From Chitinivibrionales bacterium (GTDB lineage Bacteria > Fibrobacterota > Chitinivibrionia > Chitinivibrionales > FEN-1185): a stretch of DNA of 38,422 nucleotides. The number at the start of each line of letters is the position of its first letter. The stretch's first letter is position 1. Below are positions 5,346 through 38,120 of this stretch, in pieces. The position numbers and the translations under genes are program-made. The notes under the pieces are model-generated. The model searched no databases and was not told the origin of the DNA. It saw only the letters and a program-made list of their open reading frames with translations. The stretch spans positions 1-38,422 of the forward strand of contig DATJAL010000020.1 of assembly GCA_035516255.1 (NCBI GenBank). Direction: 5' to 3'.

Positions 5346-5365
5346 GAAAGAAAAAGAGTGGCGGT

Positions 5366-5432
5366 TGACTTATGCCAAGCGTTAGGGGCGACTGGAGGCC
5401 GCGCCGGAGCCGCGGAACGCCCAATTTCATTA
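5366..5432 (+). repeat. Intergenic repeat, family B, copy 1
   Basis: This short family B copy starts with CTTATGCCAAGCGTTAGG and ends with GGAACGCCCAATTTC just before the AT-rich leader of the hydratase gene. The same two end signatures bracket copies near 14440 and 38015. The right end alone is found at many other gaps. Confidence 0.75.
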
Positions 5433-7162: not shown

Positions 7163-7455
7163 GGGCGGGGGAAGTCCAGCCTGTCTCATAACTACCAAAA
7201 GAATCATGGCGCCTGCCGGTCACGGCACCGTGCCTCCCTCCGGGCCCGGCTGTTCGCCTCGTTGCCGGACCGCCCTATGCCGCAAGCGGCGGGGCGCCCA
7301 ATTTCAGTTTTTACAATTCATGCTTAGTGCAAGTGTCCGATTGCGCTTTTCTGCGCTCTCTGCGTCTCTGCGGTGCAGTTTTTCCTTTGACTATTATGTA
7401 TTTTAATTCCAATCAAAGTGGTTTTTTAATCCTTTTCAATTAAATCATCATATCC
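7163..7455 (+). repeat. Intergenic repeats before hisD (family B and CTCTGCG type)
   Basis: This gap begins with a fragment of family A (GGGCGGGGGAAGTC near 7162) and continues with a family B copy (about 7199-7310, ending GGGGCGCCCAATTTC). It then holds a copy of the short repeat CTGCGTCTCTGCGGTG near 7359-7375, a motif that recurs between genes in many unrelated bacteria. No gene is seen. The leader just before hisD is AT-rich, with no clear promoter. Confidence 0.7.
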
Positions 7456-10165: not shown

Positions 10166-10177
10166 AAAAAATCAGGG

Positions 10178-10275
10178 CGTTCCGCGGCTTCGCCGCGGCG
10201 GCACCGCGCCCCAGCGCGGCCGGAGGGAGACCGACCCGACCCGAATTAAGTGAGGGGAGGGGAACGCCCGGATTT
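10178..10275 (+). repeat. Intergenic repeat, family B, with inverted ends
   Basis: This element starts with GGGCGTTCCGCGGC and ends with GGGGAACGCCCGG, so its two ends are inverted copies of the family B right end. The start can also fold locally (CCGCGGCTTCGCCGCGG). It separates the radical SAM gene from the tRNA pair. Confidence 0.7.
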
Positions 10276-13359: not shown

Positions 13360-14625
13360 TTATTGTTTTATCTCTTCAACAACCTGAAATTTCATTCCTT
13401 TTTTTACAAGGCTTGAGTCGCCGTAGGCCTGGGCTTTTTCCTTTGTGTCAAACTCCCCGATGTGCACCCGGAACACCTTCTTGCCTCCGGCGCTGCCCTG
13501 CGTGATCGCCGCGGAGGGAAACTGCACCGCCAGGTTCGCCCTGAGCGCCTGGGCGTTTGCCATTTCGCCGAACGCGCCCACCTGGAGCGAATACACCGTT
13601 TTTTTCTCGACTGGCTTTATTTTTTTCAACGTCGTGTCCGTGCGGTATACAGAATCCTTTGCAGGCGCAGCGACGGCTTCCTTTTTCGCCACGGTGTCTT
13701 TTTTCGCCGGCGAAGCAGATTTTACCGGCGCCCTTTCCACCATGGCTTTTTCAAGATAATCCGGATAGCGCTGCTTGATAAAGGCGAGAACCGAGTCCGC
13801 TTTTTCGCGGCGCGCAAGCCCAGCGGCGCTCGCGTAGGCGCCGGCGGCCGCGGCGCAGGAGCGCGAACCGCTGTCCGAGGAGTCCATGCACGCGCCGAAG
13901 TGCGCCAGTGCGCGGGAGTAATTTCTTTTTGAATAGTAATAGACGCCGAGATAGAAATTTGCGGTTTTCCCCACCGACATTGCGGTGTCTTCCGCTACCT
14001 TGCGCATGGTGACGGCAAACGAGCTGTCGATGGTGTCGTGGATCGCGTTGAGGTAGCACGCCTCCACGTCGCGGCCCTTGCCCGAGAGCCCGGCCGCGCT
14101 GATGAAATAACCCGACGCCTTGTGGAACCTGCTCCACAGGTAATTGGCGCACCCCAGCCTGAAATACGCCTCGCTGCGCAGGGAGTCGGGCGCCGATTTG
14201 TCAAGCGCGACCTTCTTGAGCAGCTCGAGCGCCTTTGCCGCGTCGGCAAGGGAGATGGCGTACAGCACCGTGATCTCAGGGTCGGCCGGGTTTTCCGCGT
14301 GCGCCTTTTCGAGCAGAGCGCCGGCCTTTTTGTATTCGCCCTTTTGCATCATTGCAGCCGCTTCGGAAGCGGGCCCGGCGAATGCCAAGGCGGTGAAAGA
14401 TGGGATGAAAATTATTGCGCAAAGGAAAAGCGAAGTGATGGATGCCTTATGCCAAGCGTTAGGCCGGACTGCAGGGTGAGCTGGAGCGAATTGCCGGCCG
14501 ACCCCTCGCCGAAGGCGGCCTCGGGCGGCCCGGCAACGAGGCCGCATGGCCGAGCCCGGAAGGAGGGCCGCCGCGGCAAAGCCGCGGAACGCCCATGTCT
14601 TTTTAATTTTGAAATTCTTATTCAA
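13360..14625 (-). CDS. Exported SPOR-domain protein with TPR-like region
   Basis: The mature part (about residues 80-421) has helical TPR-like repeats in the first half (EAAAMMQKGEYKKAGALLEK, then FYLGVYYYSKRNYSRALAHF). A Lys/Pro/Ala linker follows, and then a C-terminal SPOR domain (YSLQVGAFGEMANAQAL to VHIGEFDTKEKAQAY). SPOR domains bind denuded septal peptidoglycan, so an envelope or division role is likely. A signal peptide, SITSLFLCAIIFIPSFTALAFA, lies at about residues 62-83. The only in-frame starts (TTG 14625, ATG 14547) lie upstream of or inside a family B repeat, so the first 60 or so residues are repeat-derived. TTG 14625 overlaps the stop of the LapA-like gene. The true start is uncertain. 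Confidence 0.75.
   Translation of the reverse strand: MNKNFKIKKTWAFRGFAAAALLPGSAMRPRCRAARGRLRRGVGRQFAPAHPAVRPNAWHKASITSLFLCAIIFIPSFTALAFAGPASEAAAMMQKGEYKKAGALLEKAHAENPADPEITVLYAISLADAAKALELLKKVALDKSAPDSLRSEAYFRLGCANYLWSRFHKASGYFISAAGLSGKGRDVEACYLNAIHDTIDSSFAVTMRKVAEDTAMSVGKTANFYLGVYYYSKRNYSRALAHFGACMDSSDSGSRSCAAAAGAYASAAGLARREKADSVLAFIKQRYPDYLEKAMVERAPVKSASPAKKDTVAKKEAVAAPAKDSVYRTDTTLKKIKPVEKKTVYSLQVGAFGEMANAQALRANLAVQFPSAAITQGSAGGKKVFRVHIGEFDTKEKAQAYGDSSLVKKGMKFQVVEEIKQ
14440..14598 (+). repeat. Family B repeat inside the SPOR gene 5' end
   Basis: The copy runs from CTTATGCCAAGCGTTAGGCC to GCGGAACGCCCATG and carries GCCGGCCGACCCC and GGCCCGGCAACGAGGCCG modules, also present near 31858-31910. 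It lies over the 5' part of the SPOR frame without a stop codon on the minus strand. Confidence 0.75.
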
Positions 14626-14975
14626 AACGTATCGTCCCCCACCGGCTCCACAAAATCCTGGGCCTGGTCCATGGCCGCCGGCGGCGGCGCCGCCCCAGCA
14701 GCGCGTTCGGCCTCAAGTTGCTTTATCTGTTTGTCTTTTTTGTAAATCTTGGCCCTGAGCGTGACGATGTAATAGGCCGCGATGGAAAGGCCGACCGCGA
14801 GTCCCAGGCCGAGCGCGGCCGAAACGTAATGCCACACCGGATGGGGCTTGGTCTGATAAAAGAAAAACCACGCCGGCACCTGCACGCCGAACTCGGGTTT
14901 TGAAAAGTTCACGATGATCACCACCGCGATTGCAAACGAGATGACGAAAACGATCGCCCAACGGATGAAAACCAT
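14622..14975 (-). CDS. LapA-like small membrane protein
   Basis: This 117-residue protein has two hydrophobic segments (about 5-24 and 53-73) followed by a short coiled coil (RAKIYKKDKQIKQLEAERA) and an Ala/Pro-rich tail. This is the layout of LapA-domain (DUF1049) proteins, which act with LapB in lipopolysaccharide assembly. The assignment rests on layout and is tentative. ATG 14975 is preferred because AAAGGA is well spaced. GTG 14981, which overlaps the miaB stop, is the alternative. It lies between miaB and the SPOR gene on the minus strand, with overlaps on both sides, so the three genes form one operon. Confidence 0.65.
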   Translation of the reverse strand: MVFIRWAIVFVISFAIAVVIIVNFSKPEFGVQVPAWFFFYQTKPHPVWHYVSAALGLGLAVGLSIAAYYIVTLRAKIYKKDKQIKQLEAERAAGAAPPPAAMDQAQDFVEPVGDDTF

Positions 14976-14977
14976 GC

Positions 14978-16246
14978 TCACGTCCTTTCGCAGACAAGCG
15001 TCATGCCGGTGCTGTGCAGCACCCGCATGGGTAAAATCATTCCTGCCAGAGAGTCATTGCAAGCCGCAAGAACCCTTTTGCACCCGAAATCCTGTCCCAT
15101 CCAGAGCTTCTCGCCGCCGTCCTGCCGGCCGGTGAAGAGGACCGGAACGGTTTTTTCCTCCATCGCGGCGTAGTGCCGTTTGGTGATGGCGGTCTGCAGA
15201 TCGATGAGCTCCCTGAGCCGGCGCTGCTTTACATTTTGCGCCACGTCGTCGCCCATGCTCGCGGCAGGCGTGTTGTCGCGCTTGGAATACTCGAACATGA
15301 ACGCCGCCGTGAAACGTACCGCCTTGAAAAGTGAAACCGTGTCGCTGAAATCGTTTTCGGCCTCGGTGGGGAAACCCACCATGACGTCCGTGGTGATGTC
15401 GATGCCCGGAACATGATGCCGTATCATGTCGATGAGGCGCAGATAGCGTTCGCGGTCATACTTGCGGTTCATGAGACCGAGCACCCGGCTTGAGCCTGAT
15501 TGCACGGGTAGGTGCAGGTGCTTGCAGAGTTTCGGGAGCTCGGCCATTGCGCGGACCAGTTCCTCGGAACAGTCCTTGGGGTGGCTCGTGGTAAACCGGA
15601 TTCTTTCAAGGCCGTCTATGGAATGAATGCGCCTGAGCAGGCCGGGAAAATTCGTGCCGCCGTCGTGATACGAATTGACGTTCTGGCCCAGCAGGGTGAC
15701 TTCTTTTGCGCCTTTGTCAACAAGCGAGCGAACGGCGTCTTCGATGCGCAAGGCCGGAAGGGATACTTCGGGCCCGCGCACCTGCGGCACCACGCAGTAG
15801 GCGCAGCGGTTGTCGCAGCCGCGCATGATGGGCACGAACCTGCTCACCGCGTTTTCTTCATGCGCGCCCTTTTTCGCGGGCTTCGGCGCGGCCAGCGCCG
15901 TATCGATGCCCTGCACGAATTTTTCAAAATCCCTCGCGCCGATGACCCGGTCGACGCCGGGGAAATCATGCCTGAGCTTTTCGCCCATGCGCTGGGCCAT
16001 GCAGCCCACCACCCAGATTTTCTGGTTTTTTTTCCGCTGCCGCTTGTGCGCCGCGTGCTCCGCGATGTGCGCGAGCGCGCGCTGCTCGGCGTGCTCGCGC
16101 ACGCTGCACGTGTTGATCACGATGAGGTCGGCGTCCGCGGCGCGTTCCGTTTTAGCAAAGCCGCGCTCCAGGAGCACCGCGGCCAGCGCGTCGGAGTCGG
16201 CGACGTTCATCTGGCAGCCGAAGGTTTCGAAAAATACAAATGGCAT
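14978..16246 (-). CDS. miaB: tRNA-2-methylthio-N6-dimethylallyladenosine synthase
   Basis: This 422-residue protein is a methylthiotransferase. The N-terminal UPF0004 domain carries Cys11 (ETFGCQMN), Cys47 (NTCSVRE) and Cys82 (VVGCMAQ), which bind the auxiliary 4Fe-4S cluster. The radical SAM cysteines are Cys144, Cys148 and Cys151 in RGCDNRCAYC. TSHPKD, HLHLPVQSGS and DVMVGFPTE are typical, and a C-terminal TRAM domain follows. NTCSVREHAE and YCVVPQVRGPE point to MiaB, which modifies A37 of tRNAs reading UNN codons, rather than RimO or MtaB. It heads the operon with the LapA-like and SPOR genes. Confidence 0.93.
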   Translation of the reverse strand: MPFVFFETFGCQMNVADSDALAAVLLERGFAKTERAADADLIVINTCSVREHAEQRALAHIAEHAAHKRQRKKNQKIWVVGCMAQRMGEKLRHDFPGVDRVIGARDFEKFVQGIDTALAAPKPAKKGAHEENAVSRFVPIMRGCDNRCAYCVVPQVRGPEVSLPALRIEDAVRSLVDKGAKEVTLLGQNVNSYHDGGTNFPGLLRRIHSIDGLERIRFTTSHPKDCSEELVRAMAELPKLCKHLHLPVQSGSSRVLGLMNRKYDRERYLRLIDMIRHHVPGIDITTDVMVGFPTEAENDFSDTVSLFKAVRFTAAFMFEYSKRDNTPAASMGDDVAQNVKQRRLRELIDLQTAITKRHYAAMEEKTVPVLFTGRQDGGEKLWMGQDFGCKRVLAACNDSLAGMILPMRVLHSTGMTLVCERT

Positions 16247-16697
16247 AATTAATGATTTGATTAATTGATAAACAATAAAAAAGCTGGGCGTTCACTCAGC
16301 GGAATGGGCGCAGAGTTTTGCGCCCATTCCGCTGAGGTCGGTTCTCCTTACGGTCCACCCCTTCGGGTGCTTCTCCCTCGTCAGGGATTTCCAAGGGTCA
16401 CAAGGGTCGTCGTCCTTGGGCTCGGGCTGCCACGGCCCTTCAAAATTGCGGATTGTGGAATGCGGATTGCGGATTGAAAATGCATCCTCTTCTTGCCTTT
16501 AATTCCGCAATCCGAAATCCGCAATCATCAATCGAAAAGTCCAGGCGGCACCGTGCTCCAGCGACGGCCTCCGCTCCTGCTTAACGCGTGGCATAAGTCA
16601 ACCACCATTCTTGTTTTCCTTCGTTATCATCAAGCGCCGTCCCCCGAGGCAGGGGGAACAAAAATAAAATTTCACCGCAGATACGCGGAGAAGACAA
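16247..16697. repeat. Composite repeat region upstream of miaB
   Basis: No gene is seen. A reversed family B end (GGGCGTTCACTCAGC) starts near 16286. A perfect 18-base-pair hairpin lies at 16295-16336. Modules ACCCCTTCGGGTGCTTC and CCAAGGGTCACAAGGGTCG follow. An inverted pair of the common GATTGCGGATTG repeat lies at 16444-16476 and 16503-16533. A reversed family B left end (TTAACGCGTGGCATAAGTC, near 16580) follows. A TTCACCGCAGATACGCGG repeat lies at 16671-16688. Confidence 0.7.
16295..16336. repeat. Perfect 18-bp inverted repeat (hairpin)
   Basis: Left arm CTCAGCGGAATGGGCGCA (16295-16312) and right arm TGCGCCCATTCCGCTGAG (16319-16336) are exact reverse complements with a six-base loop, GAGTTT. 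No T run follows on either strand, so it is not a typical terminator. Confidence 0.9.
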
Positions 16698-20391: not shown

Positions 20392-20732
20392 AATTGATTG
20401 CGGACGGAAGAATGTAGAATGAAAATAATACAATTCATGATAATTTTATTATAATGATATGTACTTTTTTTGATTTTATATCATCAGGGACTGAAAGCTG
20501 CAGCAATGAGAATAAAGAAAAATATCGTATCAAAAGAGCCGCTTGAGTCATCCAAGGTTGTGGCGAAATCCTTTTGCCATGCAGGACTGGAGGCCGCACC
20601 GGAGCGCGGTGCTGCCCGGCCCTCGCCGAAGGCATACGGGGAGCCGAAGGCGAGACCGGAAGGACGACCCTTGGAAGTACCCGAAGGGGGAACGCCCAGT
20701 TTCATTTTTCTTTACATCATGAAAAAATAATA
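20392..20732 (+). repeat. Gap between dnaX and SRP RNA with family B repeat
   Basis: About 20578-20706 is a family B copy. It reads GCAGGACTGGAGG, GGAGCGCGGTGCTGCCCGGC, CGACCCTTGGAAGTACCCGA and the right end GGGGGAACGCCCAGTTTC. The rest, 20392-20577, is AT-rich and probably holds the dnaX promoter, but none could be placed with confidence. No gene is seen. Confidence 0.65.
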
Positions 20733-31621: not shown

Positions 31622-32016
31622 TAAATTTACGTTTGAAGGATTAACGATTATTGAATGTGGATTGAAGACAGGCATGGTGGCTCTGCGCTTCAACCCACTT
31701 TTATTTTCTTTTCTCTCAAATCAATTTAATGGACTTTCCAATATAAGCAAGCGACCAGATTGTCTGCCATGTTTCTTTGATTAAGAAGAAAAAAGCAAAA
31801 TCGGGAGTATTGCTTTTTTCCGGCGTTAGGTGGACCGGAGGGCGCGCAAGAGCGCGTTGCCGGCCGACCCCCGCCGGCACGCGGCATCGGGCGGTCCGGC
31901 AACGAGGCCGAATGGCCGAGCCCGAAGGGAGACCGACCCCGCGAAGCGGGGGAACGCCCGGATTCAAATATCTACATGTAAAGAATAAAAATCAACTACT
32001 ATTATATTCCTCCCAT
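31622..32016 (+). repeat. Gap with family B repeat
   Basis: Bases 31622-31815 are AT-rich with no gene. About 31816-31968 is a family B copy. It reads CGGCGTTAGGTGGACCGGAG, TTGCCGGCCGACCCC, GGTCCGGCAACGAGGCCG and the right end GCGGGGGAACGCCCGGATTC. Its inner modules match the copy over the SPOR gene. Confidence 0.75.
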
Positions 32017-35312: not shown

Positions 35313-35744
35313 CAAAGTGAAATCATTCTTAGATGTCAAATCTGTAGCGACATTGATTGTTTAGCCTCACCCCACCCCCTCTCCCACAGGGAGAGGGGAG
35401 ATTGTCATTCTTTCTTGCCTTGACATCGGGGCGCTGCCCCGGGCAACAAATATTACACCCCTAGGGGGCTGAAAAATACAGTCACGGCGTTACAACCTTT
35501 GCCCGTGCGCCAGGCAGGACTGGAGCTTGGTCCCGACCAACGGGAGGAAATAGACCCGCTGGAGCACGGTTCTGCCCGGCCCGCGCCGTCAGGCATATAG
35601 GGGCCGTGGCAGCCCGAGCCGAAGGCAACACCGGAAGGACGACCCTTGGAAGTACCCGAAGGGGTGCGGCCGCCGCCGCTTCGGCGGGGCGCCCATTTTA
35701 TCTTATTCTTTATATCTACTAACTATGGCACCAATCACAGACAT
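35313..35744 (+). repeat. Gap with CCTCTCCC repeat and family B copy
   Basis: No gene is seen. CCCCCTCTCCCACAGGGAGA (35376) with GGGGAG is a hairpin-forming repeat widespread in bacteria. About 35505-35695 is a family B copy. It reads CAGGACTGGAGCTTGG, GGAGGAAATAGACCCGCTGG, CACGGTTCTGCCCGGCCC, CGACCCTTGGAAGTACCCGA and GGGGCGCCCATTTTATC, closest to the copies near 20578 and 38030. Confidence 0.7.
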
Positions 35745-37867: not shown

Positions 37868-38120
37868 CTGGAGGGGGAAGCCTTTTCTGAGTGCTTCGCC
37901 GAGCTCAATACATGCCCGCGATGCGCCTTTTTTCCATGTTGCGCCCGAACCAGCATGAAAGGTTGATTTTCCCGCTCCGGAGTCCGGCGAAGAAAAACGA
38001 CAATGGTATTTTACCTATGTCAAGCGTTAGACAGGACTGGAGCTTGTCCCGACCAAGGAAATAGACCTGCTGGAGCGCGGTGCTGCCCGGCCCCGCGCAT
38101 CGGGGGAACGCCCAATTTCT
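37868..38120 (+). repeat. Gap with family A fragment and family B copy
   Basis: CTGGAGGGGGAAG near 37870 is the family A left end, cut short. About 38015-38118 is a family B copy with both end signatures, TATGTCAAGCGTTAGACAGG and GGGGGAACGCCCAATTTC. Between them lie GGAGCTTGTCCCGACCAAGG and GGAGCGCGGTGCTGCCCGGC, as near 35510. No gene is seen. Confidence 0.75.

Follow-up and report, generated by a model that had tools for sequence, protein, structure and literature searches.

A dispersed repeat read in frame ahead of the signal peptide core of a SPOR-domain gene in a Chitinivibrionales bacterium

The 38,422-nt stretch analysed here (the window) includes an ORF for a SPOR-domain protein in which most of the codons ahead of the putative signal peptide hydrophobic core belong to a repeat found at many places in the same genome. 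This raises the question of where translation of the gene begins, and whether the repeat, which a first-pass annotation proposed to have replaced the original start, supplies the start codon or only part of the region that precedes the hydrophobic core.

The SPOR ORF encompasses nucleotides 13360 to 14625 (all features of this locus are on the minus strand) and its translation, LNKNFKIKKT...NAWHKASITSLFLCAIIFIPSFTALAFAGP..., has no internal stops, so that the frame is open on this strand as had been stated before. Its first start codon is TTG, and residues 343-407 match PF05036 (E 1.6e-11; 44.8 bits against a curated cut-off of 21). The presumed mature protein (13360-14376) includes a weak TPR-like part (TPR_19, below cut-off) and the C-terminal SPOR domain (13405-13599). 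SPOR domains act on the periplasmic peptidoglycan. A protein scan of the genome_contigs collection with the SPOR protein found no relative. The gene adjoins, on its upstream side, that of a LapA-domain membrane protein (14622-14981; PF06305, E 3.4e-8; TGA stop at 14624-14622), and the run of three begins with a radical SAM/UPF0004 gene (14978-16246; matches to PF00919 and PF04055), whose product we take to be MtaB-like and whose stop overlaps the GTG of the LapA-domain ORF. A 4-nt overlap of the type NTGA can be read at both junctions of the run, GTGA at 14978-14981 and TTGA at 14622-14625, and the LapA-domain gene has an additional ATG two codons after its GTG.

That the 5' end of the SPOR ORF is occupied by a repeat was borne out by searches of the genome. 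With a 186-base query taken from the repeat stretch, 40 matches were scored in this genome, all at E ≤ 1.2e-24, indicating at least 40 dispersed copies, of which the best non-self ones are about 87-92% identical to the window copy. The right-end motif CTAACGCKTGGCATNAG occurred there 31 times with up to 2 mismatches, and its reversed control 0 times. A search covering 60 relatives located the repeat in the own genome, in the same-genus genome G001 and, as one weak match (E 1.5e-4), in G003. A profile of the repeat core built from fetched copies with their flanks gave 86 matches in the fetched DNA, a number that is not a whole-genome census, and 63 copies were kept once matches weaker than E 1e-9 had been removed, together with identical copies that recurred where loci overlapped. 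The copies have a left end GGGCGTT, preceded in most of them by A-rich bases, and a right end that reads CTAACGC or CTGGCGC, after which comes one of several kinds of tail; the two ends (GGGCGTT, TAACGC; GCGTT...AACGC) pair imperfectly.

In the SPOR ORF the GC-rich core of the repeat, GGGCGTT...CTAACGC, lies at 14456-14594 (139 nt; profile E 6.1e-31) and is read in frame as codons 11-57, which are certainly repeat-derived. The codon usage of this core is unlike that of coding DNA, with a score of -15.0 over 46 codons as compared to +94.2 over the 337 codons that follow the signal peptide; coding-like scores begin only at about residue 92. The residues NAWHKA (codons 56-61, 14460-14443), which the first-pass annotation had attributed to the end of the repeat, are indeed encoded by AACGCTTGGCATAAGGCA, which consists of the conserved end of the repeat and three further bases. 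The N-terminus of the ORF reads LNKNFKIKKT, about 46 residues from the repeat core, WHKA, and then SITSLFLCAIIFIPSFTALAFA. The A-rich stretch of 27 nt from the LapA stop to the core (14595-14621) consists of either repeat leader or native n-region codons: since the ten codons before the core are as A-rich as the leaders of other copies and also resemble lysine-rich n-regions, they can be assigned to neither, and none is provably native. Insertion of the repeat into a native MNKNFKIKK n-region was considered; it is weakened by the A-rich leaders of the other copies but may still have taken place.

On the other side of the core, the tail (14422-14455) consists of TTGGCATAAG, an exact match to the family, and a further 24 nt that match the family tail TCAACTACCACTCTTGTTTTTCTC in decayed form. 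At fixed register only 0.06-0.08% of the window positions match the family tail as well as these 24 nt do; when the halves are taken alone the values are 0.4-0.6% for the first and 1.6-1.7% for the second, which could be inflated by T-rich codons for hydrophobic residues. All of the other TCAA-type tails (16/16) outscore that of the window copy, which is therefore at best a decayed member. If the match reflects homology, the repeat would run to about codon 67 and take in the foremost part of the hydrophobic core, and some of the native codons near the start would have been lost.

Only two canonical in-frame starts (ATG, GTG or TTG) precede the hydrophobic core, TTG 14625-14623, beyond the repeat, and ATG 14547-14545, inside it at residue 27, in agreement with the earlier remark that all such starts lie in or beyond the repeat. 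The TTG, the probable native start, overlaps the LapA stop as TTGA with an offset of -4 from the stop end. It is preceded by a Shine-Dalgarno-like GGGGGA (14635-14640) whose duplex with the anti-Shine-Dalgarno sequence has an energy of -8.4 kcal/mol, a value matched by 2.8% of 3000 random positions; out of 13 other gene starts scored in the window, 12 are weaker and one is stronger. The ATG has a weak Shine-Dalgarno site (-2.5 kcal/mol). The possibility of a programmed -1 frameshift out of LapA at TTTTGA was also considered, and inspection found no slippery heptamer.

The comparison with orthologues free of the repeat, which the first-pass annotation had proposed as a check, was made on 15 loci of the order (L010-L023 and L026; orientation corrected, weaker matches left out). 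None has a repeat-coded leader, and their n-regions are short when counted from the start closest to the hydrophobic core; among the genomes examined a repeat between start and hydrophobic core occurs only in this one. An ORF of 137-237 residues is found directly upstream of the SPOR gene at 12/15 loci, being absent at the other three, and LapA_dom is present in all of these ORFs (12/12), in 11 above the curated cut-off and in L026 with 27.7 against 28. At the 12 loci the SPOR start nearest the LapA stop falls between -17 and +25 nt from the stop end: the offset is -4 at L015-L019 and L023 (ATGA or GTGA, 6/12), -14 at L010, L014 and L022, -17 at L021, +5 at L020 and +25 at L026. The nearest start overlaps the LapA stop in 10/12 loci, several of which, L010 and L014 among them, also have later ATGs that might be used instead. 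In the window, the TTG at -4 is the only SPOR start within this span. The locus of G001 (L010) has no repeat but is too diverged for the junction to be aligned and for an empty site or a target-site duplication to be read from it; its SPOR protein is 45% identical from residue 79, and it has starts at -14 and +25 and none at -4, the ATG 25 nt after the stop being followed by a normal signal peptide.

Overlaps like these have been described in coupled termination-reinitiation (PMC5972666). The position of the start at the LapA stop, conserved among the relatives, and the presence there of TTG 14625 with a strong Shine-Dalgarno-like site suggest that an ancestral coupled start has been kept. The ancestral start was therefore probably not replaced by the repeat, contrary to what had been proposed, and the repeat lies behind it and in frame; with a well-placed start beyond it, the repeat need not provide one.

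The position of the repeat is typical of its family. A rough gene model was applied to the 63 copies. Where the neighbouring gene on the left-end side is co-directional, its stop codon precedes the left end by 12-37 nt in 22 of 31 copies; where that neighbour has the opposite orientation, 5 of 32 copies are within this distance. This tight association with the 3' ends of co-directional genes is striking, and the 27 nt that separate the window copy from the LapA stop fall in the middle of the distribution. The model is a home-made codon score, for which 15 long window ORFs were the training set, so single gene ends may be off. Besides the SPOR copy, 2/63 copies overlap rough gene models, and the others are intergenic. 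Reading through a copy is ordinary rather than surprising, since the register used in the SPOR gene is open across leader, core and tail in 11/43 full-length copies. We also considered selection to keep the frame open, which is not supported, given this number, the 18/43 full-length copies that have at least one open frame, and the non-coding-like codon usage of the core. What sets the SPOR copy apart among the 24 copies whose downstream gene is co-directional is that only here does an ORF enter from before the repeat with no canonical start between repeat and hydrophobic core; past the repeat, the first in-frame starts to follow are a TTG within the cleavage region and, after it, ATG-ATG (residues 92-93).

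The hydrophobic core and cleavage region, SITSLFLCAIIFIPSFTALAFA, look normal; they occupy 14377-14442 and include the best 12-residue hydropathy value (2.83) of the first 100 residues; the presumed cut, judged by inspection, is after AFA. Translation from the TTG would give a predicted signal peptide of 83 residues, 61 of them in an n-region of net charge +15, and translation from ATG 14547 one of 57 residues, 35 of them in an n-region of net charge +10. The repeat provides most of a long basic leader, as the first-pass annotation had anticipated, where its length had been put at 60 residues; it would be 61 or 35 residues according to the start. The mature protein, including the SPOR domain, is the same under either start, and its coding sequence is uninterrupted and coding-like. 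Exceptionally long signal sequences occur in autotransporters (PMC2805444), and by analogy export of such a precursor is plausible.

The explanation that we favour, and to which we would give about an even chance, is that the repeat came to lie behind the LapA stop, in frame within the n-region of the SPOR protein, and is read from TTG 14625. An intergenic repeat prone to sites tens of bases behind stop codons would have come to lie 27 nt past the LapA stop, at a site falling in what was the short positively charged n-region of SPOR. This is SPOR coding DNA because the SPOR start overlaps that stop in TTGA. As the copy happens to be free of stops and in phase, ribosomes could read through it: those ending LapA would re-initiate at TTG 14625 and cross the repeat into the old hydrophobic core, and the product would carry the 83-residue signal peptide with its 61-residue, +15 n-region, to be removed on export. 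Several features speak against this explanation. TTG is a weak start codon; the TTGA overlap could be a coincidence, since a TTT codon before TGA yields it automatically; G001 has no start at -4; a GC-rich stretch follows the start, although the fold of start plus repeat (-84 kcal/mol) is not beyond that of shuffled sequences (z -1.35); and the similarity of the tail to the family suggests that the repeat may extend over codons 61-68, so that native codons near the start would have been lost rather than shifted.

Should translation begin instead at ATG 14547, the repeat would supply both the start and the basic n-region of 35 residues. This ATG is the only one in frame upstream of the hydrophobic core, and it would give an n-region of net charge +10, but its Shine-Dalgarno site is weak, it is buried in GC-rich structure and it is not at the start position conserved in the relatives, which makes this reading unlikely. 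The coding-like codon score only from about residue 92, together with the tail match to codon 67, would fit a damaged gene that lost its native start and n-region with the arrival of the repeat and is now poorly expressed, or expressed as an unexported protein from the ATG-ATG at residues 92-93. Such a form would be useless to a protein acting on the periplasmic peptidoglycan. The hydrophobic core with its AFA motif is intact and is followed by 337 uninterrupted coding-like codons, and the signal peptide of any gene may score poorly for codon usage; we consider damage to the gene quite unlikely.

An error of assembly, by which one of many similar copies was misjoined to a gene that in truth has an ordinary start, has to be kept in mind as the genome is in 61 contigs, the same-genus relative is a metagenome assembly, and repeats of 140-190 nt can confuse the assembly of short reads. 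The copy is, on the other hand, distinct from the others (at best 87-92% identical), the ORF is continuous on both sides of it, and it lies as far from the LapA stop as is usual for the family, so that an artefact is very unlikely. The first-pass annotation had further suggested that an unusual start might be forced. A non-canonical start (ATC, ATA or ATT) within SITSLF would have AAGG a few bases ahead of the ATC; it would produce a signal peptide with no charged n-region at a place where the orthologues have ATG or GTG, and canonical starts are available here, making it highly improbable that such a start is used.

If the favoured reading from TTG 14625 is correct, the repeat could have gone further and been taken over as a working, removable n-region, with restart at the TTGA, the T-rich tail perhaps making up the first part of the hydrophobic core, and the whole targeting the protein for export; we regard this takeover as rather unlikely. 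Since signal peptides are cut off, a repeat in frame at this place would alter targeting and leave the mature protein untouched, and the n-region may be a tolerant landing place for mobile DNA within a gene. Where two genes overlap, a 3' position that is usually harmless would become a place of insertion into coding DNA. Were the takeover true, such repeats could quite generally find their way into N-termini through overlapping gene pairs, with the mature protein intact. For annotators, the case is a warning against taking the nearest ATG as the start in such genes.

Although the case is unusual, it resembles known repeat insertions in genes. The Rickettsia palindromic elements (RPE) are dispersed repeats, about 150 nt long, which can form in-frame parts of genes, and in R. 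conorii nearly half of them are within ORFs as translational fusions (PMC10969869). The likeness, a dispersed repeat of similar size read in frame inside a gene, is one of outcome and not of membership. Unlike RPE, nearly all examined copies of the present family are intergenic, many of them behind stops: 2/63 overlap rough gene models in addition to the SPOR copy, and 1/24 lacks the usual later start. The family is for this reason not filed under RPE. In its high copy number, non-coding nature and position 3' of genes, and perhaps in its imperfectly pairing ends, it is like MITEs and REP-like intergenic repeats, differing in that it has several tail types. The most fitting description is a MITE- or REP-like intergenic repeat of which one copy became coding through gene overlap. 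The long leader recalls signals of the ESPR type, the exceptionally long N-terminal signal sequences used with Sec by autotransporters (PMC2805444). As those belong to autotransporters and two-partner secretion proteins, and the present leader is repeat-derived, precedes a SPOR protein and was found in one genome, we do not count it among them. The LapA-SPOR pair itself is arranged as in the relatives of the order, SPOR following LapA with its start overlapping the stop or adjacent to it, and differs from them in the repeat between start and hydrophobic core. A literature search limited to open-licence papers found nothing on this repeat or on any repeat-derived signal peptide leader.

Rfam showed no family at the repeat, and no terminator-like site was found in 14300-14750. 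When 17 tails were folded with a possible terminator role in view, the best energy was -9.3 kcal/mol (L039), 12 were between -2.5 and -6.1, three were 0.0 and the window copy had -0.6. Two weak matches to PF01797 (Y1 transposase) in the own genome, G000:C16:70097-70333 and G000:C2:4-105 (28.5 and 24.6 bits), might represent a candidate mobilising enzyme of a REP-like family. The tails that follow CTAACGC or CTGGCGC differ from one another and are each conserved (e.g. L054, L053, L061, L062 and L057), as in TTGGCATAAGTCAA...CCACT followed by a T-run, GGCGGCGG...GTGGCGCCGATCGG, and GAAACATCATCCTG; with several conserved tail types behind the right end, the family looks modular. Further full, partial or weak copies are found in the window at 5357-5410(-), 7221-7293(+), 16539-16587(+), 20577-20697(-), 31823-31959(-), 35508-35644(-) and 38024-38100(-), and the left end alone is matched at 10175-10202(+).
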